Source: Nitrososphaerota archaeon
GTDB taxonomy: Archaea; Thermoproteota; Nitrososphaeria; Nitrososphaerales; UBA183
Reading direction: 5' to 3'
DNA: 39,469 bases
NCBI GenBank assembly: GCA_027886865.1
Contig: JAPCJR010000019.1
Span: 1-39,469 of the forward strand
Of this stretch, positions 2,067 to 13,713 are shown piece after piece. The number at the start of each line of letters is the position of its first letter. The stretch's first letter is position 1. The translations under genes were made by a program, and so were the position numbers. The notes under the pieces are model-generated. The model saw nothing but the letters and a program-made list of their open reading frames with translations, searched no databases and was not told the DNA's origin.

Positions 2067-4085
2067 TTGTCGAAGCCTCTGGGAGAGCTTTCGCTCCGCG
2101 AGAAGACATACTCTCCTCCGATAAAAGAGATAATCCTAGAGAACTTTATGAGCTACGAATACGCGAGAATACCATTCAGGGAGGGTCTGAACCTTGTGGT
2201 CGGTCCCAACGGGGCCGGCAAATCGTCTATCCTTCTGGCCATATCCGTTGCCTTCGGCCAGGCATACACCGAGAGGTCCAGGAAGCTGAGCGACCTCATC
2301 CGTCGCGGTAAGGAGATAGCGCGTGTATCTCTCATCTTTGATAACAGGGAGAGGAAGGGGACTCGGCCAATTCCCTACTCAAAGTCAGACACCTTCATGC
2401 TTTCGCGCTATCTTCGCAAGGACGGTTCATACTGGTATGAGGCGGACTATCGAGAGATAGACAAGAGCGAAGTGGTAAGGCTCCTGAGGGAGTTCGGCAT
2501 CAACCCGGACAATCTCCTGATAATCATGCACCAGGGGATGATCGAGGAGCTCGGTGCCATCTCTGCGCAACAGAGACTCACGATGGTGGAGGAGGCGGTA
2601 GGGTTCAGAGAGTACAGGGAGAGGATATTTCAGTCAGAGAACGACCTCAAGGCCCTCACCAGCGAAGAAGGTTCCCTTGTCCAGCTCATCGACAACGCTA
2701 ACCAGACCATCGAATACTGGAAGCAGGTCTACGAGCGATATCTCGAGAAGAAGAATCTCCAAGAGCACCGGGCCCTGCTCGAGAGGGAACTCCTCTGGGC
2801 GCAGGAGGGCAAGCTCTCCAAGTCGTTGCGTTCGGTCCGCGAGAAGCTTACCAACAAGCAGGAGAGCCTGGACGACCTCCAGGACCAGCAGAAACGGTCG
2901 GGGACCGAGTCCGAGATGCTGCACAAGTCGCTGCTTGGGAGACAGGTGGAGCTCAGCAAGCTCTACGGGGCGGTCGTCCGAGCGGAGAAGGAGCGGGCGA
3001 CCGACGATGGTGCCAAGCGGGCGATGGAGAACCTCCGGGACGAGCTCGAGAGCCTGCGAGAAGACCTTGCAACTCTCACTTCAGGTCTCGACCAGAAGAA
3101 GATGAAGCACATCCAAGAGGTCCTGGATTTTTCTTCTCAAAAGTCCAAGCGCGAGTCTGAGGAAGCCTCACGGAAGAAGACTGAGCTGGATCGGGAGGTG
3201 TCGTCACTACAGGCGGAGTTGGGCGGCGTCGAAGATTCGATCAAACGGACCACCGAGGAGTACATCTCTCAGAGGGTGAAGTTCGAGGTGCTCGGCTATC
3301 GCATCAAGCTCACAGAGTCCGAGATAAGGGAGCTGGAACGGTCGGAGAAGGAGGCTGTCGCAGAACTGGAAGCGCTGAAGAGCGACCTGGAGAGGGCGGG
3401 CGAGAGATTGGTCACGGAAAGGCAACCCTACGAGGTCTCGGAGGAGATGAAGTTAGTCTCGGCCCAACTGCAGAAGCTGCAGGACCTCCCGGAGGACGCA
3501 GAACGGATTTACAAGGATTACATCGGAAACATAGAGGGCCTGAAGGATAAGCTGACGCAGCTTCAGGAGAACAGGACGCTGATACTGCGCGAGCTCGAAG
3601 ACCGCAAGAAGGCATGGAGGTCTTCCGTCGAAGGACTCATCGAAGAGATTACTCCTGTGTATCAACATGTCCTTTCCACCGTAGGGGCGCTGGGTGCCAT
3701 ACGCCTCGAAGAAGGGAGTGGCATCGAGGAGACCGGCCTGCAGTTGCTCGTAGGCTACAAGGGCGCGCCTCCAGCCGTTCTGGACCCGTACACACAGAGC
3801 GGGGGCGAAAGGTCTGTAGCGCTCGTTGCGTTCATACTCTCGCTGCAGAGCAGGATAATCTCTCCCCTCAGAGCCATGGACGAGTTCGATATCCACATGG
3901 ACCCGAGGAACAGAGAGGCGATATTCAAGATGATACTCGCTCAGTCTAGGGCCAATCAGACATCCCAGAACATCGTCATCACGCCCTCGATCATATCTGT
4001 CATCGACCGGTCAGCACATGTCATAACCGTGCAGTCGGTCCACGGGGCCTCTGAGGTGAAGGAGTTTGCCGGAAAAGCAAGATAA
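2067..4085 (+). CDS. Compact SMC-family ATPase, Smc5/6-like head
   Basis: DNA-associated ABC ATPase of the SMC/Rad50 superfamily, 672 aa against roughly 1100-1200 for normal SMCs. N-terminal head: Walker A GPNGAGKS at 46-53, Q-loop region IIMHQGM near 153-158. A coiled coil runs from about 215 to 520. C-terminal head: signature SGGER at 578-582, Walker B PLRAMDE at 600-606, D-loop MD at 611-612, then NIVITPS at 635-641. The DEFDIHMD segment and the TP where most SMC proteins carry a His-containing switch resemble Smc5/Smc6 heads rather than Smc1-4 or bacterial SMC. There is no Cys pair for a Rad50 zinc hook and no obvious globular hinge. The kleisin gene overlaps its 3' end by 20 bases. Start is TTG, fitting a near-leaderless promoter. 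Family assignment is solid; the Smc5/6 affinity is my reading by eye. Confidence 0.85.
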   Translation: MSKPLGELSLREKTYSPPIKEIILENFMSYEYARIPFREGLNLVVGPNGAGKSSILLAISVAFGQAYTERSRKLSDLIRRGKEIARVSLIFDNRERKGTRPIPYSKSDTFMLSRYLRKDGSYWYEADYREIDKSEVVRLLREFGINPDNLLIIMHQGMIEELGAISAQQRLTMVEEAVGFREYRERIFQSENDLKALTSEEGSLVQLIDNANQTIEYWKQVYERYLEKKNLQEHRALLERELLWAQEGKLSKSLRSVREKLTNKQESLDDLQDQQKRSGTESEMLHKSLLGRQVELSKLYGAVVRAEKERATDDGAKRAMENLRDELESLREDLATLTSGLDQKKMKHIQEVLDFSSQKSKRESEEASRKKTELDREVSSLQAELGGVEDSIKRTTEEYISQRVKFEVLGYRIKLTESEIRELERSEKEAVAELEALKSDLERAGERLVTERQPYEVSEEMKLVSAQLQKLQDLPEDAERIYKDYIGNIEGLKDKLTQLQENRTLILRELEDRKKAWRSSVEGLIEEITPVYQHVLSTVGALGAIRLEEGSGIEETGLQLLVGYKGAPPAVLDPYTQSGGERSVALVAFILSLQSRIISPLRAMDEFDIHMDPRNREAIFKMILAQSRANQTSQNIVITPSIISVIDRSAHVITVQSVHGASEVKEFAGKAR

Positions 4086-4824
4086 GAAGCTGGAGGACAT
4101 TCTCCGGCTGATAGAGCTCTGCCGGAGCGTTCAATCGTCCAGCGTCGACCCGTTTCAGGTAAACATCAGGGAGAAGCTGCTGACGCTCAAGAAGCACCTG
4201 CCTGAATGGAATCTCATAGACGTCATGCTGATGGACTCCGAGGCCATGCAGCAGCTCGTGGGCATAGTCAAGCTGCAAGACCAATGGATAAAGCACAGAG
4301 CGTCGTCGCTCTACATAGACCCGCTCCTCCTCGAGCTGAAGATCAGGCTGCTCTCCCGTGAGGACCTCGCCAACAGCTTCGCAAAGTGCTGGCATCCGAT
4401 TGCCCAGGTGGACCAGCTCACTGCGAGAGGACTCGAGAAGGCGTTCATCTATTGGCGAGACCTGGTGCCTATGTCTGAACGGTTCAAGAACGAGTTTGGG
4501 AACTACGGGACAACCCCGGTCCAGATGGACTTCGAGGAGCTCCAGTCTCTGAACATCTTCACAAAGGAACAGTTCGAGACAAGGCTCAATACGCTAAACG
4601 ACGAGCTTGTCCAGAAAGCTGGTGACGGCGAGATCGACTACCGGTCATTCATAGAGGCTGAGACATTCGAGGAGAAGGCGGTCCGAGCCTACCTAGTGGC
4701 ATTCATCGTGACAGAGGGAAGGGCGAACGTAAGGACGGACCCGCTCACAGAGAAGATATTCATCTCCTCTGTGGTCGGACAGGCAGGTCCTGAAACAAAG
4801 TCGGTGGCGATAGAGATCATATGA
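4066..4824 (+). CDS. Kleisin-like subunit (ScpA/Nse4 role)
   Basis: Predicted 252-aa kleisin that would bridge the heads of the upstream SMC protein. Residues 26-95 (SVDPFQVNIRE, then a helical bundle ending IDPLLLELKIRLL) match the layout of archaeal ScpA N-terminal domains, in which an I-D-P-W-x-V-D-I segment is followed by helices that bind the SMC neck. Residues 187-235 (helix FEEKAVRAYLVAFIVTEGRA, then a short wing ending IFIS) resemble the C-terminal winged helix of kleisins that contacts an SMC cap. The middle part is the expected site for KITE binding. It overlaps the SMC gene by 20 bases and the next gene by an ATGA. Start is TTG. The identity is inferred from pattern and context, not a database match. 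Confidence 0.68.
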   Translation: MPEKQDKKLEDILRLIELCRSVQSSSVDPFQVNIREKLLTLKKHLPEWNLIDVMLMDSEAMQQLVGIVKLQDQWIKHRASSLYIDPLLLELKIRLLSREDLANSFAKCWHPIAQVDQLTARGLEKAFIYWRDLVPMSERFKNEFGNYGTTPVQMDFEELQSLNIFTKEQFETRLNTLNDELVQKAGDGEIDYRSFIEAETFEEKAVRAYLVAFIVTEGRANVRTDPLTEKIFISSVVGQAGPETKSVAIEII

Positions 4825-5375
4825 GCACAGATGATGGGGAGAGAGCGCTACTGGAGAGGAAGATGAGGAAGGCGCTGCAGATACTGATATTGCAGAGGGG
4901 AAGAAACCCAGGCGTCAAAGGCTGGGAGATGAAGAGGCACCTGGGTAAGGACTACAGGACAATCCTTCAGGTCCTCTCTACCGACTTAAAGTCGTTGGGT
5001 CTTGAGGTCCACGAAGTCCCAGGGATCGAGGGGACCGACGACTCCATCAGGTTCCTGCTCCGGTTCCGGGACTCGCCGACCCTCAGCGAGGCCGAGACTG
5101 CGGGTTTCCGGATAGACGACCTGGCTGTTCTGGCCGCCTCTATCGCCCTGGTGAACTCCAAGCAGGGCAGGATCGGTCGGAAGGAGCTGGAGAGCTTCCT
5201 GAGAGAGAAGTTCCCCAGATGGAGGGTCGACTATTCTCTGGACCGCTTCATCAAGAGGGGATACCTCGACCAGGACGACAAGGCGCTGTTGCGGATAGGG
5301 TGGCGGACGAGGGCGGAGGTGGACGAGAAGTCGCTGATGACCATCATCCTTGCCAGAGACACCGCACAGAAATGA
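4821..5375 (+). CDS. KITE subunit, Nse3/MAGE-like tandem winged helix
   Basis: 184 aa, two winged-helix units. The first (about 15-82) runs from KALQILILQ through VKGWEMKRHL and the YRTILQVLSTDLKSLGLEV segment; the second (about 97-178) runs from DDLAVLAASIAL to the end. The second resembles the MAGE/Nse3 domain: a hydrophobic helix before the gap, a KELESFLREK helix, then DRFIKRGYLD (compare the LI..FV..KYL pattern of MAGE), and IGWRTRAEVDEKSLM (compare WGPRA..E.SKMKVL). KITE proteins (ScpB, MukE, Nse1, Nse3) bind the middle of kleisins, which is what this position in the operon predicts. ATGA overlap with the kleisin gene. No nuclease subunit like Wadjet JetD follows. The winged-helix reading is fairly firm, the Nse3 link moderate. 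Confidence 0.65.
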   Translation: MSTDDGERALLERKMRKALQILILQRGRNPGVKGWEMKRHLGKDYRTILQVLSTDLKSLGLEVHEVPGIEGTDDSIRFLLRFRDSPTLSEAETAGFRIDDLAVLAASIALVNSKQGRIGRKELESFLREKFPRWRVDYSLDRFIKRGYLDQDDKALLRIGWRTRAEVDEKSLMTIILARDTAQK

Positions 5376-5388
5376 GGTCACCTATCAT

Positions 5389-5396
5389 CTTAAATC
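5389..5396 (+). promoter_or_regulatory. TATA box of the glutamate synthase genes
   Basis: CTTAAATC centred at 5393, 26 nt before a GTG at 5419. This spacing predicts a message starting at the GTG itself and argues against the TTG at 5350, which lies inside the KITE gene and upstream of the promoter. Confidence 0.6.
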
Positions 5397-5418
5397 TGAC
5401 CCGGGGGGACCTGAAGTA

Positions 5419-7767
5419 GTGTCACGAGTCGACAATCTGAGCAGAGGTCGCACCATAGAGGTTGCCACCTATCTGCCCATCCCACCTGCAAGGTCCCGGG
5501 AGTTCTGGACCAAGTGGAAGATTCAACACATCAGGCAGATGGCCACTACAGGCCTCGCAACCCTAGAACCGGTAATTCCTGAGGCTGAACGCACCCAGCG
5601 GGTCCTGGACAAGCTTTACCTCAAGGATCAGCGCTCTACGTTCGAGGGCACGAAGCGAACGACGAGCATGCCCCTGTTTCCTGGCTCTTCGGTCGAGCTC
5701 TCCTCACCGCTATACCTGGGCGACATGTCATTCGGTGCCCTATCCGGCATCCCCAATATAGCGATCGCTAGGGCTGCAGACGAGACGAAAGTCCTGGCGG
5801 GCACGGGCGAAGGGGGCCTCCTGAAAGAAGTCGGCGAATGTTCAAGGATAACTGTCCAGTGGGCCTCGGCGCGCTTCGGAGTTACAATATCATCCCTCCT
5901 GAAGGGAGAAGCTGTAGTGATCAAGATTGGCCAGGGCGCCAAGCCTGGGATAGGGGGCCACCTTCCCGGGGTGAAGGTCACTGAACCCATATCAGAAACA
6001 AGGAAGATTCCAATAGGCAAGGATGCCATCTCGCCCGCTCCCCACCATGACATCTACTCGATTGAGGACCTCGGCCAGAGGATACTCGGACTGAAGGAAG
6101 CTACAAAGAAGCCGATCTTCGTGAAAGTGGGGGCGACGAACTACATCCCCTACATCGCGTCGGGGATAGCGAGGATGGGAGCAGCTGGGATAATCATCGA
6201 TGGAGCGGGGGCAGGGACAGGAGCCGCCCCCTCCGTCGTCAAGGACAACGTCGGAATTCCCATCGAGCTAGCGACGGCTTCAGTGGATTCCATACTGAAG
6301 AAGGAGGGGTTTAGGGACCGCTTCACTGTCATAGCCGCCGGCAGGGTGAGCACTCCTGAAGACTCGCTCAAGCTGATGGCCCTCGGGGCCGACATGACGA
6401 GCCTCGGCACGGCGACCCTCATGGCCCTGGGATGCCTCATGGTCCACAAATGCCACATAGGCTACTGCCCGGCCGTCCTGACGAACAAGATCGCGCCGAA
6501 TCAGGTCAGGTCGCTCTCTCTGCAACAGTCGATCAAGTGGCTCGTCAACCTCATCAACGGCTGGACGGAAGAGATGCAGGTATTGATGGAGAAAGTCGGC
6601 GTTACGGACATCATGGATCTCAGGGGAAGGAGAGATCTCCTGTACTACCGTTCCCTGAACGAGGAGACGGCGTCCATACTCGGTTTCGAGAAGGCCGCTC
6701 CCAGCGGACGGACGGACGTAAGAAAGCGAGCTCTCCCGCCGCAAGGGCAGAAGCTTTGGCCTCCACATCGAGTGGGTATCCTCAGGGACATGGCCGGCAC
6801 CACAGGCAAGTATCCCGCCGAGTCGGAGATCTCCAGCATGGGAACGAACAGCCCCCCCTTCATCCAGGACCCGGTCCGCCTCACGGATTGGCTCGTCTCG
6901 GACGGAGCGCAGGTGACAAGGCCGAGCATAGACCCTTACAGGGAAGAGATTGAGATTTCGAGCTACATCGGAGGGGCTGACCTAAGGTTATCCTCCCCCT
7001 TCTTCTTCACCCGTCTCCCGCCCAACACCCCGGAGAGCGTCATCGTGATGTTTGCACGGGCGGCGAACGCGATGGGACTCTTACTAGATACCGACAGATC
7101 TACCGGTGCTACGCTCGAACCTTTCAAGGAGAGGATCATCTCCGACATCGAGGACGGGTTCAGCTCGGGTATTCGCTCAGTCCGCCTCGGGTGGTACCTG
7201 GCCGACCCCACGCGCGGCTCCCTGGTGAAGAGCCTGGCCGGCGGGGCCCCGATGCTGCTGCGTTCGCCGAGCGCGTGGGACGCCATCGCAACCATAATGA
7301 GAAACATCGCCGCCATGGACATCTTCTCAGGAATCATCCTCGACGAAGACGAGGCGGGTTCGGATATGCAGGTGGAGGCGGCCGTTTCACTCCTGGACCG
7401 TGAGCTCAAGCACCACGGGCTGAGGGGGAAGCTGAACGTTATCGCCGAGAGCAACGGGATACGCGGTTCGGATGACATCTTCAAGACGGTGGCGCTCGGC
7501 GCGGACTGCGTAGGGTTCGGGAAGGCTGCTTTGCTCGCGATCGGTGTCGAGGAGGACGACCGGGAGATCATACTCGACGCCAGGGCCTCACAAAGGCTGG
7601 AGAATTTCGTGGCCGCTACGCAGAAGGACATCAAGTTGCTGGCTGGCGCGGCCGGAATCAGCAACATCAACTCGACGCTCACCGGCAACAGAGAGCTGCT
7701 CAGGTCGATCGACATGGAGCCTTCATCTAGGATAGAGCTCGGCGTCAAACCAGCGGGGGGTGCTTGA
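5419..7767 (+). CDS. gltB: Glutamate synthase, FMN/Fe-S synthase subunit with duplicated barrel
   Basis: Archaeal-type glutamate synthase domain-2 protein, which reduces 2-oxoglutarate plus ammonia to glutamate on FMN. From GTG 5419 it is 782 aa. First half: barrel with GEGG, SPAPHHDIYSIEDLGQ, DGAGAGTGAAP, VIAAGRVSTPEDSLKLMALGAD and the 3Fe-4S ligands in CLMVHKCHIGYC (nucleotides about 6433-6468). The second half repeats the same order of elements (FARAANAM, GIILDEDEAG, VIAESNGIRGSDDIFKTVALGAD, then ISNINSTLTGNRELL) but lacks the Cys cluster, so it looks like a degenerate second copy. The amidotransferase and GXGXG parts are in the next gene. No GltD-like electron-donor subunit is nearby. Alternative start TTG 5350 (805 aa). 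Confidence 0.85.
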   Translation: MSRVDNLSRGRTIEVATYLPIPPARSREFWTKWKIQHIRQMATTGLATLEPVIPEAERTQRVLDKLYLKDQRSTFEGTKRTTSMPLFPGSSVELSSPLYLGDMSFGALSGIPNIAIARAADETKVLAGTGEGGLLKEVGECSRITVQWASARFGVTISSLLKGEAVVIKIGQGAKPGIGGHLPGVKVTEPISETRKIPIGKDAISPAPHHDIYSIEDLGQRILGLKEATKKPIFVKVGATNYIPYIASGIARMGAAGIIIDGAGAGTGAAPSVVKDNVGIPIELATASVDSILKKEGFRDRFTVIAAGRVSTPEDSLKLMALGADMTSLGTATLMALGCLMVHKCHIGYCPAVLTNKIAPNQVRSLSLQQSIKWLVNLINGWTEEMQVLMEKVGVTDIMDLRGRRDLLYYRSLNEETASILGFEKAAPSGRTDVRKRALPPQGQKLWPPHRVGILRDMAGTTGKYPAESEISSMGTNSPPFIQDPVRLTDWLVSDGAQVTRPSIDPYREEIEISSYIGGADLRLSSPFFFTRLPPNTPESVIVMFARAANAMGLLLDTDRSTGATLEPFKERIISDIEDGFSSGIRSVRLGWYLADPTRGSLVKSLAGGAPMLLRSPSAWDAIATIMRNIAAMDIFSGIILDEDEAGSDMQVEAAVSLLDRELKHHGLRGKLNVIAESNGIRGSDDIFKTVALGADCVGFGKAALLAIGVEEDDREIILDARASQRLENFVAATQKDIKLLAGAAGISNINSTLTGNRELLRSIDMEPSSRIELGVKPAGGA

Positions 7768-7769
7768 GC

Positions 7770-9920
7770 ATGAAGCTAGACAACATAGCCTTCGACCGGC
7801 GGTTCGGTCAGCCGGTTGTGAAGGATGGATGCGGAGTGTTCGGCATCTTGCGGAAGGTCGACGCGCCCCTGATCTCGAACAGTATGGCCGTCAACGGGAT
7901 ATCCTGCATCAAGTATCGAGGGAGTGACCTCGGAGCGGGCTACGCTGCTTTCAGGACATTGAACGAACCCGGCAGTGCTCCCTATAAGCTTCAGGCTTTC
8001 GTCACGGGGGAGAAGGTCGCCGAACAGATAACGTCATTGTTCGAGGAACAAGTCGGCGTTGTGGAGAGCCAGAGCTTGCGTATTGTTGACCCGCGAAGGA
8101 GGGAACTTTCCGTCTGGGAGGCGACCGTCCGTGCGCGCGGAGCAGACGCCGATACGAGGGTGGAGAACGCTGTGGACTCTGTCAACACTTCTCTCTTCAC
8201 TGACAGCTTCGAGGGACGCATCTTCTCCTACGGACGGTATCTCGCAGTCTACAAGGAGGTGGGGTATCCGGACGAGGTGGCCAAAATGTGGGGCCTCGAA
8301 GGAGACAAGGGAGTCGCCGATATGTGGATCGCGCACACGAGGCAGCCCACCAACTCGCCCGGTTCACTTCCAATCTGGTCACATCCCTTCGCCTCGATGA
8401 ACACCGCCATAGTGCACAACGGAGACATCAGCTCCTATGGCTCCAACATGGAGCTTCTCAACTCGTGGGGCATCAGGAGCCACGTGGGGACCGACAGCGA
8501 GGTCATCGCCAAACTGCTAGACCACTTGATCAGAATCGAAGGGCTGACCATACGTGAAGCGGCGACTGTGCTGACGAATCCCTTCGAACGAAACATCTCT
8601 CAGGAGATGAGGTCGCTCCTATACCGCTATAGAGGAGCGAGGCTAGATGGCCCGTTCGCGGTCGTGGCTGGTTATGCTGACGGCAAGGACACTTATCTCA
8701 TCGCGCTCACCGATAGGTCGAAGTTCCGCCCGCTGCTCTTCGGCGAGGATGAGAATTACTACTATGTGGCCAGCGAGGAGAACCAGATTAGAAACCAGTC
8801 CAGGCGCGCCAAGATTTGGACTCCTGAACCCGGGGCCTTCTTCATCGCCTCCCTGCGGGACGGACTGATGGAGACCGGGACGGAGAGAAGCCTGGACACC
8901 CAGAACGCCGCCCTCGGAAACGGACCAAGACTGCCGGAACTCCCCGGATTCGTCCGGATAGACGCGACGGGGAAGGAGTTCAAAGAGATCAACGAGGCGA
9001 TTTCAAGTGCCTATTCAGGCAGGGCACCAGGCGTGGTGGTCGAGAACTGCACCGGACAAAGGTATCTGGGGATAGGCGTCTCGACGCGTTCCGATGGCCG
9101 TTCCGAGCCATTCAGAATCGTCGTCACGGGCTTCCCTGGTAACTGCCTTGCGAACCTGAACGATGGCGCTTCATTCGAGGTCCACGGGAACGCGGCCGAC
9201 GACCTCGCCGACACCATGCATGCAGGCTCCATCGCCATCCATGGGAACTGCAGGGATGTTGCCGGGCAGGCCATACAGGGAGGTACGATCTTCGTTCGTG
9301 GGACGGTCGGGAACAGAGCAGCGATTCAGATGAGGGAGTATACCAAAGAACGACCATTTCTCATAGTCGGGGAGACGGCCGACGACTATCTTGGCGAATA
9401 CATGGCAGGTGGTGTGGTAATGGTGCTAAACCTCTCGGATTCGAAGAAGCCCGCGAGGAACTACATAGGGACTGGGATGGTAGGAGGGAGGATCTACATA
9501 CGGGGAAGGGTCAAGGAGGAACAGGTGGGTCTGATACCTCAACGTGAGGACGTGCTGCGCTATCTTCGCGCACAAACACTCGATGGGAGCCTCTCAAAGG
9601 AGACCTATGATCTCATATCCCGCGCAGACTATCCGAGCCTACAGCTACTCTCGAAGACGCTTCCGGACCCCATCATGATTAGGATTCTGACGATATTCTT
9701 CGCCACCAAGTACACTAAACCCTTGGTGGTCGAGTCCCGAAAGCTGGACGAGCAAGACCTTGCGGTGGTCGGGGAGAGGCTCAGGCAGTTCTTCAAGACA
9801 TTCTCGCTCCCACACGAGACGCTCGAAAGCGTCCTGGCTTCGGAGTTTACGGTCATAAAGACTAAGGACGAAAAGGTCGAGCTGCACGTTCCGCCCCAAG
9901 AGGCGCCAATCGAGGAGTAG
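7770..9920 (+). CDS. Glutamate synthase amidotransferase fused to GXGXG domain
   Basis: 716 aa from the ATG at 7770, which follows a G-rich ribosome-binding stretch; a TTG at 7764 overlapping the upstream stop is possible. The N-terminal class II glutamine amidotransferase carries its candidate nucleophile Cys at residue 21 (KDGCGVFG), preceded by a short extension that would have to be removed or tolerated, plus AHTRQPTNSPGS and VHNGDISSYGSN, typical of this fold. The C-terminal region (about 425-570) is the beta-helical GXGXG domain of GltB (VHGNAADDLADTM, IHGNCRDVAGQAI, YMAGGVVMVL, GTGMVGGRIYIRG). It should supply ammonia to the FMN subunit encoded just upstream. In many archaea these two parts are separate genes; here they are fused and the synthase domain is split off. 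Confidence 0.85.
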   Translation: MKLDNIAFDRRFGQPVVKDGCGVFGILRKVDAPLISNSMAVNGISCIKYRGSDLGAGYAAFRTLNEPGSAPYKLQAFVTGEKVAEQITSLFEEQVGVVESQSLRIVDPRRRELSVWEATVRARGADADTRVENAVDSVNTSLFTDSFEGRIFSYGRYLAVYKEVGYPDEVAKMWGLEGDKGVADMWIAHTRQPTNSPGSLPIWSHPFASMNTAIVHNGDISSYGSNMELLNSWGIRSHVGTDSEVIAKLLDHLIRIEGLTIREAATVLTNPFERNISQEMRSLLYRYRGARLDGPFAVVAGYADGKDTYLIALTDRSKFRPLLFGEDENYYYVASEENQIRNQSRRAKIWTPEPGAFFIASLRDGLMETGTERSLDTQNAALGNGPRLPELPGFVRIDATGKEFKEINEAISSAYSGRAPGVVVENCTGQRYLGIGVSTRSDGRSEPFRIVVTGFPGNCLANLNDGASFEVHGNAADDLADTMHAGSIAIHGNCRDVAGQAIQGGTIFVRGTVGNRAAIQMREYTKERPFLIVGETADDYLGEYMAGGVVMVLNLSDSKKPARNYIGTGMVGGRIYIRGRVKEEQVGLIPQREDVLRYLRAQTLDGSLSKETYDLISRADYPSLQLLSKTLPDPIMIRILTIFFATKYTKPLVVESRKLDEQDLAVVGERLRQFFKTFSLPHETLESVLASEFTVIKTKDEKVELHVPPQEAPIEE

Positions 9921-10851: not shown

Positions 10852-13713
10852 TCAGGAGGCGAAGTAGCGCCTCTTCAGCGCCTCTCTCTCGCCTTCGATC
10901 ACATAGTCGACTATGTCCCCTCCTTCCTTGGCCTTCTTGGTGAGCAGGCTGGCGACCTCAGCGAGCCTAATGCCCCTGCCCGCCATGAGGACGAGCGCGT
11001 CAGACCCGAACTCATTGACGACCCTGGAAGACCTACGGAGCGTCTCTATCACCTTCATGTTCTTGCCACGCAGCTCCGACCTGCTCCTAGCCTTCAACGA
11101 CAAGCTGAATATCGTCTCGTACGACTCGGTCGAATATGCCACGGTGTCGTTGCCGCAACGGGGACACTTGGCCGGCTGTATCCCTCCGACCCTCTTCAAC
11201 TCGATGTAGTCCCAGCAGTTGGTGCAGCAAGCCACCAAGAAACTGTCCATCACGCGCGCTTCGGTGGATTGCCTGATTATCGCCCGGAGCCTCTCAGGAG
11301 AGACGATTTCCCCTCGCCTGCTGACCTCTTCCACCCCTATCCTCGCAAGAGGGCTAATGCCCTCGGGCTCTATGATCTCCAAACCCACTTCCTTCTGCCT
11401 GATCTTCGCGAGCACGCCGCGTGCCGCCTCGACGTCGAAGTCGTCATGGAAAATGACGCTGATTGCCTCTTCGTAGACGGGAGTGCCCCTGAGCGCCTCC
11501 ATCAGCCCCGATATGGAGATGCTCGCGTAGTCCGCAGTCTTTGCAATCGCGCCGCACTTCTTGCCGACATGGATCAACCTGCGCTTGAATATCCCCGACC
11601 TCTCGACGGCGTTCCTCGCCAGCTCTCCCAGGTCCTTGTCCGGCAGGCCCTCCAGCGTCGTCTTGACAAGCGCAGGAGAGGCGTCCACCTCGAGTATGAT
11701 TCGGTAAGGGTCCTGGTGGACCGCCACCGATTGCCCTAGCCGCTCGGAGATGAGATGCGCCACCACGCGCGCGAGCACCCTGTTCACCTTGTGGCCAAAA
11801 GAGGACTGGATTATGACGTACCTGTCCCATCTCTCGATCGTGATGAGCTTGTCAGAAGGGATGGGAATCCCCTGGGAGTGCTGCTCCAGCACTTCCTTGA
11901 GCGACTCCGTCGCCGCTGCTCGGTCTATAGGATATCTGCCGCAGAGTTGTTCAATGTAACTCTCAGCCCGAGATTGTGCGGCGCTTTCGGCATACTCTCG
12001 CCTGATCGCTCCCACCTCGACGGCGACGTCGAGCGGAACGGGTATCTCGTCTCCCACCCAGCTCGGAACGGCGCCCGTTGGGTCCTCCTCGGGCGCGACA
12101 TAGACGCGGTTCTCATATATCTCGAGTATCTTCCAGCATCTTCCAGCCTCCACGAACTTGATGCCGACCTGTCCGTACTCAGAGACGAACGCCTCGTCCA
12201 GCACCCCCACGGGTTTGTCGCCCTCGCCGATCACGATGTACTGCTTTTCATCCGGAATCATGGAGAGGTTCTCGAAGTAATATTCGAATAGAGGCTTGAA
12301 GTCCCGCGCCCTCTTGACGATGTTATCGCTCTCCGTGAACTGCAACAGCTTCGGGTACCTGTCTCTCATGTAGTTGAGCAGGTTCTTCAGCGACTCTACG
12401 CTGAGGGTCGAGTACGGATATGCGCTCCTGATGAGGCTGTACATATCCTCGAGCTTCCATGAATTAGTCTCGACGAGCAGTCCGGCTATCTGATGGATCG
12501 CCGCGTCGCTCGCGTTCTTGAACGGAATCAAAGGTTCCAGCTCGCCCAAGAGCGACCTCCTGCAAAGGACCATCGCCTCGAGTGTGTCATCGGAGTCCTG
12601 CGTGATTACGAGGCCCTTGGACGTCTGTCCTATCCGGTGCCCGCTTCTACCCACCCTCTGTATCAGCCGCGAGACCTGTCTCGGCGAGTTGTACTGGATC
12701 ACATAATCCAGGAACCCTATATCGATTCCCAACTCCAGGCTGCTGGTCGCTATCACCCCCGATAGCTTGCCCTCCCTTAGGTTGCCCTCCACGGCCTCTC
12801 TGGTCGCTCGGGACAGCGAGCTGTGATGTATCCCGATGGGAAGCTTGGAGTCCCAGACCCGGAACCTGTTGGCGAGGGCCTCCGCCTCGCTCCGCGTGTT
12901 GGTGAAGATGAGGACCGACCTGTACTTCTCGACCACCTCTCGGATCAGCCTGAGCCGCGCCGCGACCTCTGGGAACGTGAATATGGTCTCAGCGAATATC
13001 TTGTCGTCTGCCGTCGGTTCGGGCCTCGTCACCTGCAGCTCGAGGCTCTTCTCCACGGGTACCCGCACGACCTCGCATTCGGACCCCTGCCCCACAAGAT
13101 ACTTGGCGATTGTCTCCGGCGAGCCTACTGTCGCCGATAGCCCGATTATCTGGAAGTTCTTTCCGACTATCCTCTTTAGCCTCTCGAGCGCGAGTGAGAG
13201 CTGGCTGCCCCTCTTGTCCTCGGCGAGTTCATGCACCTCGTCGACGACCAGCCAGCGGAGCGCGGTCAGGCTCTCCCTGATTCGCCGTCCCGTCAGCATG
13301 GCCTGCAACGTCTCCGGCGTCGTGATCAAGATGTCGGGAGGCGCCATGCTCTGCCCTGCCCTCTCGGCGCTAGTGGTATCGCCGTGCCTCACTCCGAGCC
13401 GCACGTCGAACCTTTTGCACCACCATTTCATCCTCTCCAGCATGTCCCTGTTCAGAGCCCTCAGCGGAGTGATGTAGAGTAGCTTGATCCCCTTGGTCCT
13501 GGCCAGTTCGTTCCTGATCATGGTGTCTAGTATGGGGAGGAACGCAGCCTCGGTCTTCCCTGTGCCGGTTGGCGCCATCAGGAGCGCGTTTCTTCCGGCC
13601 ATGACGATGGGAACGAGTTTCATCTGCGGGTCCGTCGGTGAGACGAAACCCCTCTCCTCCAGCGCCTTGTTCAGGGGCGGGGAGAACAACTGAAAGACGC
13701 TGGCTTCGGTCAC
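10852..13713 (-). CDS. lhr: Lhr-type superfamily 2 helicase
   Basis: ATP-dependent 3'-5' DNA/RNA helicase of the archaeal Lhr-core family, 953 aa, with roles in DNA repair and recombination. Motifs in order: Q-motif region (FVSPTDPQMKLVPIV), Walker A APTGTGKTE at 47-55, DEVHEL (motif II), GLSATVG (motif III), ATSSLELGIDIG (motif V), IQRVGRSGHRIGQ (motif VI). A winged helix and a long Lhr-specific C-terminal part follow, ending with a zinc ribbon (CCTNC, then CPRC, in the region around residues 830-860). GTG start. It is convergent with the CBS gene (5-base gap) and lies downstream of ilvD on the same strand with a 57-base spacer. Confidence 0.93.
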   Translation of the reverse strand: MTEASVFQLFSPPLNKALEERGFVSPTDPQMKLVPIVMAGRNALLMAPTGTGKTEAAFLPILDTMIRNELARTKGIKLLYITPLRALNRDMLERMKWWCKRFDVRLGVRHGDTTSAERAGQSMAPPDILITTPETLQAMLTGRRIRESLTALRWLVVDEVHELAEDKRGSQLSLALERLKRIVGKNFQIIGLSATVGSPETIAKYLVGQGSECEVVRVPVEKSLELQVTRPEPTADDKIFAETIFTFPEVAARLRLIREVVEKYRSVLIFTNTRSEAEALANRFRVWDSKLPIGIHHSSLSRATREAVEGNLREGKLSGVIATSSLELGIDIGFLDYVIQYNSPRQVSRLIQRVGRSGHRIGQTSKGLVITQDSDDTLEAMVLCRRSLLGELEPLIPFKNASDAAIHQIAGLLVETNSWKLEDMYSLIRSAYPYSTLSVESLKNLLNYMRDRYPKLLQFTESDNIVKRARDFKPLFEYYFENLSMIPDEKQYIVIGEGDKPVGVLDEAFVSEYGQVGIKFVEAGRCWKILEIYENRVYVAPEEDPTGAVPSWVGDEIPVPLDVAVEVGAIRREYAESAAQSRAESYIEQLCGRYPIDRAAATESLKEVLEQHSQGIPIPSDKLITIERWDRYVIIQSSFGHKVNRVLARVVAHLISERLGQSVAVHQDPYRIILEVDASPALVKTTLEGLPDKDLGELARNAVERSGIFKRRLIHVGKKCGAIAKTADYASISISGLMEALRGTPVYEEAISVIFHDDFDVEAARGVLAKIRQKEVGLEIIEPEGISPLARIGVEEVSRRGEIVSPERLRAIIRQSTEARVMDSFLVACCTNCWDYIELKRVGGIQPAKCPRCGNDTVAYSTESYETIFSLSLKARSRSELRGKNMKVIETLRRSSRVVNEFGSDALVLMAGRGIRLAEVASLLTKKAKEGGDIVDYVIEGEREALKRRYFAS

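Follow-up and report, generated by a model that had tools for sequence, protein, structure and literature searches.

What kind of complex is encoded by the three overlapping genes at positions 2067 to 5375 of contig JAPCJR010000019.1, from a Nitrososphaerota archaeon (assembly GCA_027886865.1)? The stretch analysed here, which we call the window, comprises positions 1 to 39,469 of this contig (39,469 nucleotides). A first-pass annotation of the window had read the genes as an operon for a structural maintenance of chromosomes (SMC) ATPase, a kleisin and a tandem winged-helix protein of the KITE type, resembling a miniature Smc5/6 complex. All three frames were found in the window on the plus strand, at 2067-4085 (SMC, 672 residues, TTG start as listed), 4066-4824 (kleisin, 252 residues) and 4821-5375 (KITE, 184 residues); the SMC and kleisin genes overlap by 20 bases, the kleisin and KITE genes by 4 bases. 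Homologues are plentiful, with 4141 for the SMC (other SMC-type proteins included), 535 for the kleisin and 1242 for the KITE at E <= 0.001, and the nearest named matches and loci come from Nitrososphaeria or 'Thaumarchaeota' assemblies. Some close SMC relatives are named 'structural maintenance of chromosomes protein 5' in their source records. In our view, the gene products, i.e., a mini-SMC, a kleisin of Nse4 type and a KITE akin to Nse3 and Nse1, are likely to form a single archaeal complex homologous to the core of Smc5/6.

The SMC head belongs to the Smc5/6 branch. Pfam SMC_N matched the protein at 2.4e-35, and its closest relatives in the PDB are Smc5 and Smc6 (109 to 78 bits), with the best canonical SMC at 76 bits. 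In an alignment of 36 relatives, the Walker A motif GPNGAGKS (2202-2225) is kept as GPNG[AS]GK throughout, while the ABC signature TQSGGER (3792-3812) reads as in Smc5 chains and is present as QSGGE in 33 of the 36. The end of Walker B and the loop next to it read DEFDIHMD (3879-3902), for which the Smc6 counterpart is DEFDVYMD, and every relative fits DE[FY][DE]xH[ML]D. ITPS (3978-3989) replaces the switch histidine region, and ITP is again found in 36/36. Both stretches had been taken as Smc5/6 features in the first-pass annotation. This holds for the DEF...MD stretch; the absent switch histidine is not diagnostic by itself, because canonical archaeal SMCs are without it, too (ISLRD, ITLRD). 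The telling letters are the proline of ITP/LTP, common to Smc5 and Smc6 chains, and DEF...MD, common to Smc6.

The head phylogeny upholds the proposed affinity. In a tree of 39 rows (IQ-TREE, LG+C20 PMSF, Rad50 as outgroup), a single starred clade (99/96) united 14 mini-SMCs with one Smc5, two Smc6 and an Asgard-type SMC of 996 residues. The next branch held six SMCs from a second operon of Asgard-type genomes (99/90), and on the opposite side stood the canonical SMCs together with Smc2 (93/91). Seven approximately unbiased (AU) tests were made in all. These rejected the mini-SMC with canonical SMC (p 0.0095), with Rad50 (p 0.011), with the second-operon SMCs (p 0.036) and outside all other SMCs (p 0.010), and likewise Smc5/6 with the second-operon SMCs (p 0.032); a group of mini-SMC and Smc5/6 minus the 996-residue protein was not rejected (p 0.236). 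An archaeal 'SMC5/6-related' SMC was reportedly described by Yoshinaga and Inagaki in 2021. It also groups with Smc5 and Smc6, the mini-SMCs very likely are the same proteins or their kin, and as an SMC it is already known in print. Our tree agrees with the clade of Smc5, Smc6 and the 'SMC5/6-related' SMC given, with support of 100/0.99, in the part of PMC9389158 available to us, which is silent on partners and on hinge loss. We found no published description of its kleisin, its KITE or its hinge loss, although a preprint by van Hooff et al. (2024) on prokaryotic SMC roots may have one.

The second gene product is an Nse4-type kleisin. The four best PDB matches of its profile are Nse4/EID3 chains (4e-4 to 1.1e-3), and Nse4 was also the best match by Foldseek. 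Pfam Nse4_C was matched in 31 of 48 kleisin relatives, though not in the window kleisin taken alone. Nine archaeal ScpA rows served as control; SMC_ScpA was matched in 7/9 of these and Nse4_C in 0/9. In the low-confidence model, the N-terminal helices (4072-4308) end in a long helix (residues 51-81), which would be expected to bind the SMC neck, and the C-terminal winged helix (4564-4773), seen in the model and in fold matches, would be expected to bind the SMC cap. The third product is a tandem winged-helix KITE that resembles Nse3/MAGE and Nse1. Its model has a predicted local distance difference test (pLDDT) score of 85.1, and the first seven Foldseek matches are MAGE, Nse3 or Nse1 chains. 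Its C-terminal WRTRAEVDEKSL segment (5301-5336), presumably akin to MAGE, follows W[RK]xxxE[VI]D in all but one of 51 relatives. SMC_ScpB was matched in 7/7 ScpB control rows vs 0/51 KITE relatives. The kleisin and KITE assignments of the first-pass annotation are hence borne out, for the KITE by fold, where the top-ranking matches are both strong and specific. No result placed the ATPase in Rad50/SbcC or RecN, or the two partners in unrelated families lacking a kleisin or winged-helix fold.

The mini-SMC lacks a detectable hinge or zinc hook, a point that the first-pass annotation had missed. It measures 587-683 residues among the 36 relatives, vs 1,182-1,380 in the canonical archaeal SMC frames read. 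The predicted coiled-coil arms and tip, between the invariant W244 and R447 (2796-3407), span 132-234 residues of variable length with 0-4 prolines in the relatives. The Pfam hinge model alone has 116 positions, so at least the shortest mini-SMCs would have no room for a hinge and two arms. This model was absent from the full match list of the window SMC, nor was it one of the 25 most frequent among the 139 families that the 36 relatives matched. No CxxC, the mark of a zinc hook, was found in these relatives (0/36). A hinge profile run on 17 mini-SMC-bearing genomes matched in nine, only in frames of at least 1,182 residues, and in no mini-SMC gene. No hinge-bearing SMC was found in the other eight, some of the genomes being incomplete: L052, L061 and L066 (Methanosarcinales-/Methanophagales-titled), L072 (Methanomethylicota), L073 (titled a Bathyarchaeota chromosome), L074, L007 and L014. 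The first three are all the Methanophagales-/Methanosarcinales-titled genomes among the 17. By these computations, the proposed 'stripped-down' homologue appears stripped further than had been thought.

The three genes are conserved as a unit. Loci were taken as the best 80 of 256 with an SMC from a scan of genome contigs. Kleisin and KITE genes lie downstream of the SMC in 58 of the 80, and in 57 all three are adjacent in the same order, with gaps of -50 to +41 bases. There is one SMC gene in the operon, and genomes with two matches contain the halves of one gene, as judged by coordinates. Two opposite-strand genes part SMC from kleisin in L038; a second SMC gene in this gap was rejected, as neither of the two is an SMC. 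The 22 loci without the operon comprise L028, which ends inside the SMC gene, L004, with 1.2 kb downstream and no match, and 20 titled Methanophagales (7), Methanosarcinales (9), Methanomicrobia (2), Nitrosotalea (L047) and Halobacteria (L065). The SMC of L047 resembles those of the Methanophagales-/Methanosarcinales-titled loci, perhaps by a binning error. Several of the 20 contigs stop shortly past the SMC, and a sensitive profile search (HMMER --max) of the partner-less loci found no kleisin or KITE there. Whole-genome search of ten genomes (nine of the 22 operon-less ones and the operon-bearing L068) found both partners in 9/10; in 8/9 operon-less genomes the pair lies away from the SMC, with the kleisin immediately before the KITE. 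A loss of kleisin and KITE in Methanophagales/Methanosarcinales-type loci was rejected on account of these pairs and of the short contigs.

The three genes also occur together. In the window's phylum, 54 of 121 genomes have the KITE, and exactly the same 54 have the kleisin. The mini-SMC (E <= 1e-80) is found in 55, i.e., in those 54 and in one genome with a 438-residue frame. By coordinates, the kleisin adjoins the KITE in 53/54 genomes (the exception is G098), and a small number of genomes, among them G037, G060 and G098, have the SMC apart from the pair. KITE was found in 18/101 genomes round that of L074, and in 13/146 (one a fragment) in the phylum of the L052 genome. That the three proteins work together is best indicated by this matched occurrence, even though some lineages have lost the linkage. 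A survey of gene neighbourhoods in related archaea had been suggested as a check on the operon, and it turned out in its favour.

How close, then, is the system to eukaryotic Smc5/6? Computation shows subunit homology (for the KITE chiefly by fold), conserved gene order, matched presence and absence, and the lack of a detectable hinge or hook. Shared with the Smc5/6 core are the branch of the SMC head, the C-terminal domain of the Nse4-type kleisin, the MAGE/Nse-type KITE fold and the ITP/LTP and DEF...MD letters. In contrast, there is one SMC gene instead of two, with about 670 vs about 1,100 residues, no hinge was found, a single KITE without RING is present, and Nse2, Nse5 and Nse6 were not recognised in the operon, to which the search was confined. 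Because the operon has neither two SMCs nor a hinge, we class the system as homologous to Smc5/6 but short of full membership.

An ordinary archaeal condensin of the SMC-ScpA-ScpB type, shortened by loss of its hinge and with diverged partners, would show the same three-part layout of SMC, kleisin and KITE gene. Archaeal SMC-ScpA is reported in PMC7055376 to function without a KITE. This explanation can draw on the top NCBIfam model for the window SMC, which is the canonical SMC_prok_A (178 bits, with a cut-off of 729; no Smc5/6 model is among the listed NCBIfam models), on an alignment between kleisin profile and ScpA that covers the C-terminal domain (76.9%) and on the C-terminal domains of ScpA and Scc1, which rank high by fold against the kleisin. 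However, canonical SMCs stand on a separate head branch, to which the AU tests would not admit the mini-SMC, they have a hinge, and their partners belong to the ScpA and ScpB families, neither of which was matched in the relatives of our proteins (ScpA 0/48, ScpB as above) while the controls were positive. The KITE reached only 4.2% in comparison with the ScpB profile, and 9/17 genomes have a hinge-bearing SMC besides the mini-SMC. We hence regard a reduced condensin as unlikely.

A Wadjet- or Mks-type defence complex is still less probable: the SMC has 75 PADLOC matches, the best 25 of which include no Jet or Mks model, the partners match nothing in PADLOC, no nuclease subunit was recognised in the operon, and the steady neighbourhood and matched occurrence are unlike a patchy island. 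The ASRP family (coalescin, Sph) likewise consists of short archaeal SMC-related ATPases; according to the part of PMC9389158 at hand, its vast majority has a zinc hook and its flanking genes are without consensus. That the mini-SMC is a Rad50- or ASRP-like repair ATPase next to two unrelated small genes is highly improbable, for in spite of its similar size, an adjoining SbcD-like phosphoesterase and matches of 59-65 bits to Rad50 and ASRP models (64.7 vs a cut-off of 300 for ASRP), the AU test speaks against Rad50 (ASRP being outside the tree), CxxC is lacking, and the neighbours have kleisin and KITE folds and a matched occurrence.

Several points weigh against the preferred reading of the operon as a homologue of the Smc5/6 core, beside the canonical NCBIfam match. 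The kleisin model is poor (pLDDT 62.4), its TM-scores are low, and SarX has a fold score as high as those of kleisin domains. Sequence matches of the KITE are thin: MAGE was matched in only 4/51 relatives, Sec61_beta and TY-Chap3 were weakly matched in 15 and 10, and the PDB profile match has an E of 0.16. Window kleisin and KITE taken singly gave no useful Pfam or NCBIfam match. Absence of a family from the VIA-align lists of kleisin and KITE was not counted as evidence. The head tree has few eukaryotic rows and long branches and was built without ASRP, RecN, Smc1, Smc3 and Smc4.

Asgard-type genomes, a set of 21 Ras-rich genomes, have systems that may be related. The best mini-SMC match in the 21 reached 135 bits, far under true mini-SMC scores, and two frames of 676 residues matched weakly. 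The same kleisin was sought there and rejected, since a match better than E 1 turned up in only 2/21 genomes, each time a short and implausible one. Ten loci read (L131-L140) contain a longer SMC of 1,071-1,161 residues; the next gene encodes 214-238 residues in 9/10, followed in the same direction by one of 170-175 residues in 7/10. This second operon consists of a gene for 355-438 residues (with an AAA match in L132), the SMC, a kleisin-like and a KITE-like gene, and exists besides a canonical SMC operon (L141-L144). The SMC of 996 residues stands at the head of a further row in two other genomes (L158:1046-5863, L159:338-5152), with proteins of 256, 201 and, with paired cysteines, 151 residues. 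It carries ITPS and IDEFTQKLD, and the head tree puts it, on a long branch, next to Smc6 (97/79). The 201-residue protein bears a weak likeness to the KITE (49.6% against its profile), and the kleisin profile gave 0.5% for the 256-residue protein of L158. This row is possibly a fuller archaeal Smc5/6-like operon. L074 is titled Hodarchaeaceae, an Asgard family; it gave no Ras-family match, and its SMC aligns closely with that of the Hadesarchaea-titled L071. Its title is doubtful; if it were right, an Asgard genome would carry the mini complex.

Upstream of the operon, on the minus strand, lie a gene we call 'up' (1279-1986, 235 residues, in 44/80 loci) and an SbcD/PdeM-like phosphoesterase (389-1141, in 32/80 loci; TIGR00024 2.1e-23 and TIGR04123 1.2e-16, below cut-offs). 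The divergent 'up' is an associated gene without family match: its profile matched nothing in the PDB at E values of up to 10, Pfam yielded nothing but weak, scattered matches and NCBIfam none of use, and its invariant residues are spread along the length. An Lhr-type DEXH helicase is encoded on the minus strand at 10852-13713 (PRK13767 7.2e-158 and TIGR04121 3.2e-114, below cut-offs) and found in 44/80 loci, in 28/80 together with the phosphoesterase. Two loci, L049 and L059, have Lhr, 'up' and phosphoesterase head to tail some kilobases off the SMC; these genes hence look like a unit of their own. The nearest named families of these neighbours include the 'ligase-associated DNA damage response' helicase and nuclease, below cut-off. 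We propose a role in repair because of the neighbour genes, which as its sole basis also count among the weak points, and we put its chances at about even.

Between KITE and Lhr, the window has a glutamate-synthase-type block, found there only in the window's closest relatives. Two large genes (5350-9920, plus strand) have glutamate-synthase-type parts in an arrangement unlike the standard large subunit, and the second adds amidotransferase-like and formylmethanofuran-dehydrogenase-C-like parts. Best family matches between 13771 and 33262 are dihydroxy-acid dehydratase, 2-oxoacid dehydrogenase E2 and E3, acetolactate synthase, isopropylmalate synthase and isomerase and an aldehyde dehydrogenase, i.e., ordinary metabolism. 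No tRNA was found in the window.

How might so small a complex work? Neck, cap and linker contacts are described for Smc5/6 in the accessible part of PMC7297730, and we carry them over to the mini complex by analogy. Two mini-SMC copies would meet via heads that sandwich ATP, and one kleisin would bridge these heads unequally, with its N-terminal helix on one neck and its C-terminal winged helix on the other cap. A pair of KITE subunits may grip the kleisin linker and touch DNA. ATP binding and hydrolysis would shut and release a small clamp around DNA. Lacking a hinge, this clamp would at its far end either be open or be held by a simple contact of coiled coils. With no hinge at that end, a short-range DNA clamp or tether would be expected and not a long-step loop extruder, and genome maintenance is the proposed task. 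The site of action would probably be repair or replication intermediates, beside the Lhr-type helicase. ATP-driven clamping of DNA without long-range extrusion may or may not be what the complex does, and we see the two sides as nearly balanced.

Archaeal relatives of the Smc5/6 SMC proteins were already in print, and an operon with matching kleisin and KITE would extend prokaryotic ancestry to the whole core. There is perhaps an equal chance either way that an Smc-Nse4-Nse3 core worked in Archaea before eukaryotes and that a widespread branch of it does without a hinge, in some lineages apparently as the sole SMC complex. The system also points to 'up', a family without matched model that shares its neighbourhood with an Lhr-type helicase. 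With 1,108 residues in total, the three-gene version would lend itself to purification and structure determination much more readily than its eukaryotic counterpart. A hinge-less system would provide a natural test of which SMC actions, i.e., ATP-dependent clamping, DNA entrapment or loop extrusion, need a closed ring. If such a pre-eukaryotic core with a hinge-less branch did exist, SMC-kleisin-KITE action needs no hinge dimerisation, and the clamp of heads, kleisin and KITE would be the ancestral working part.

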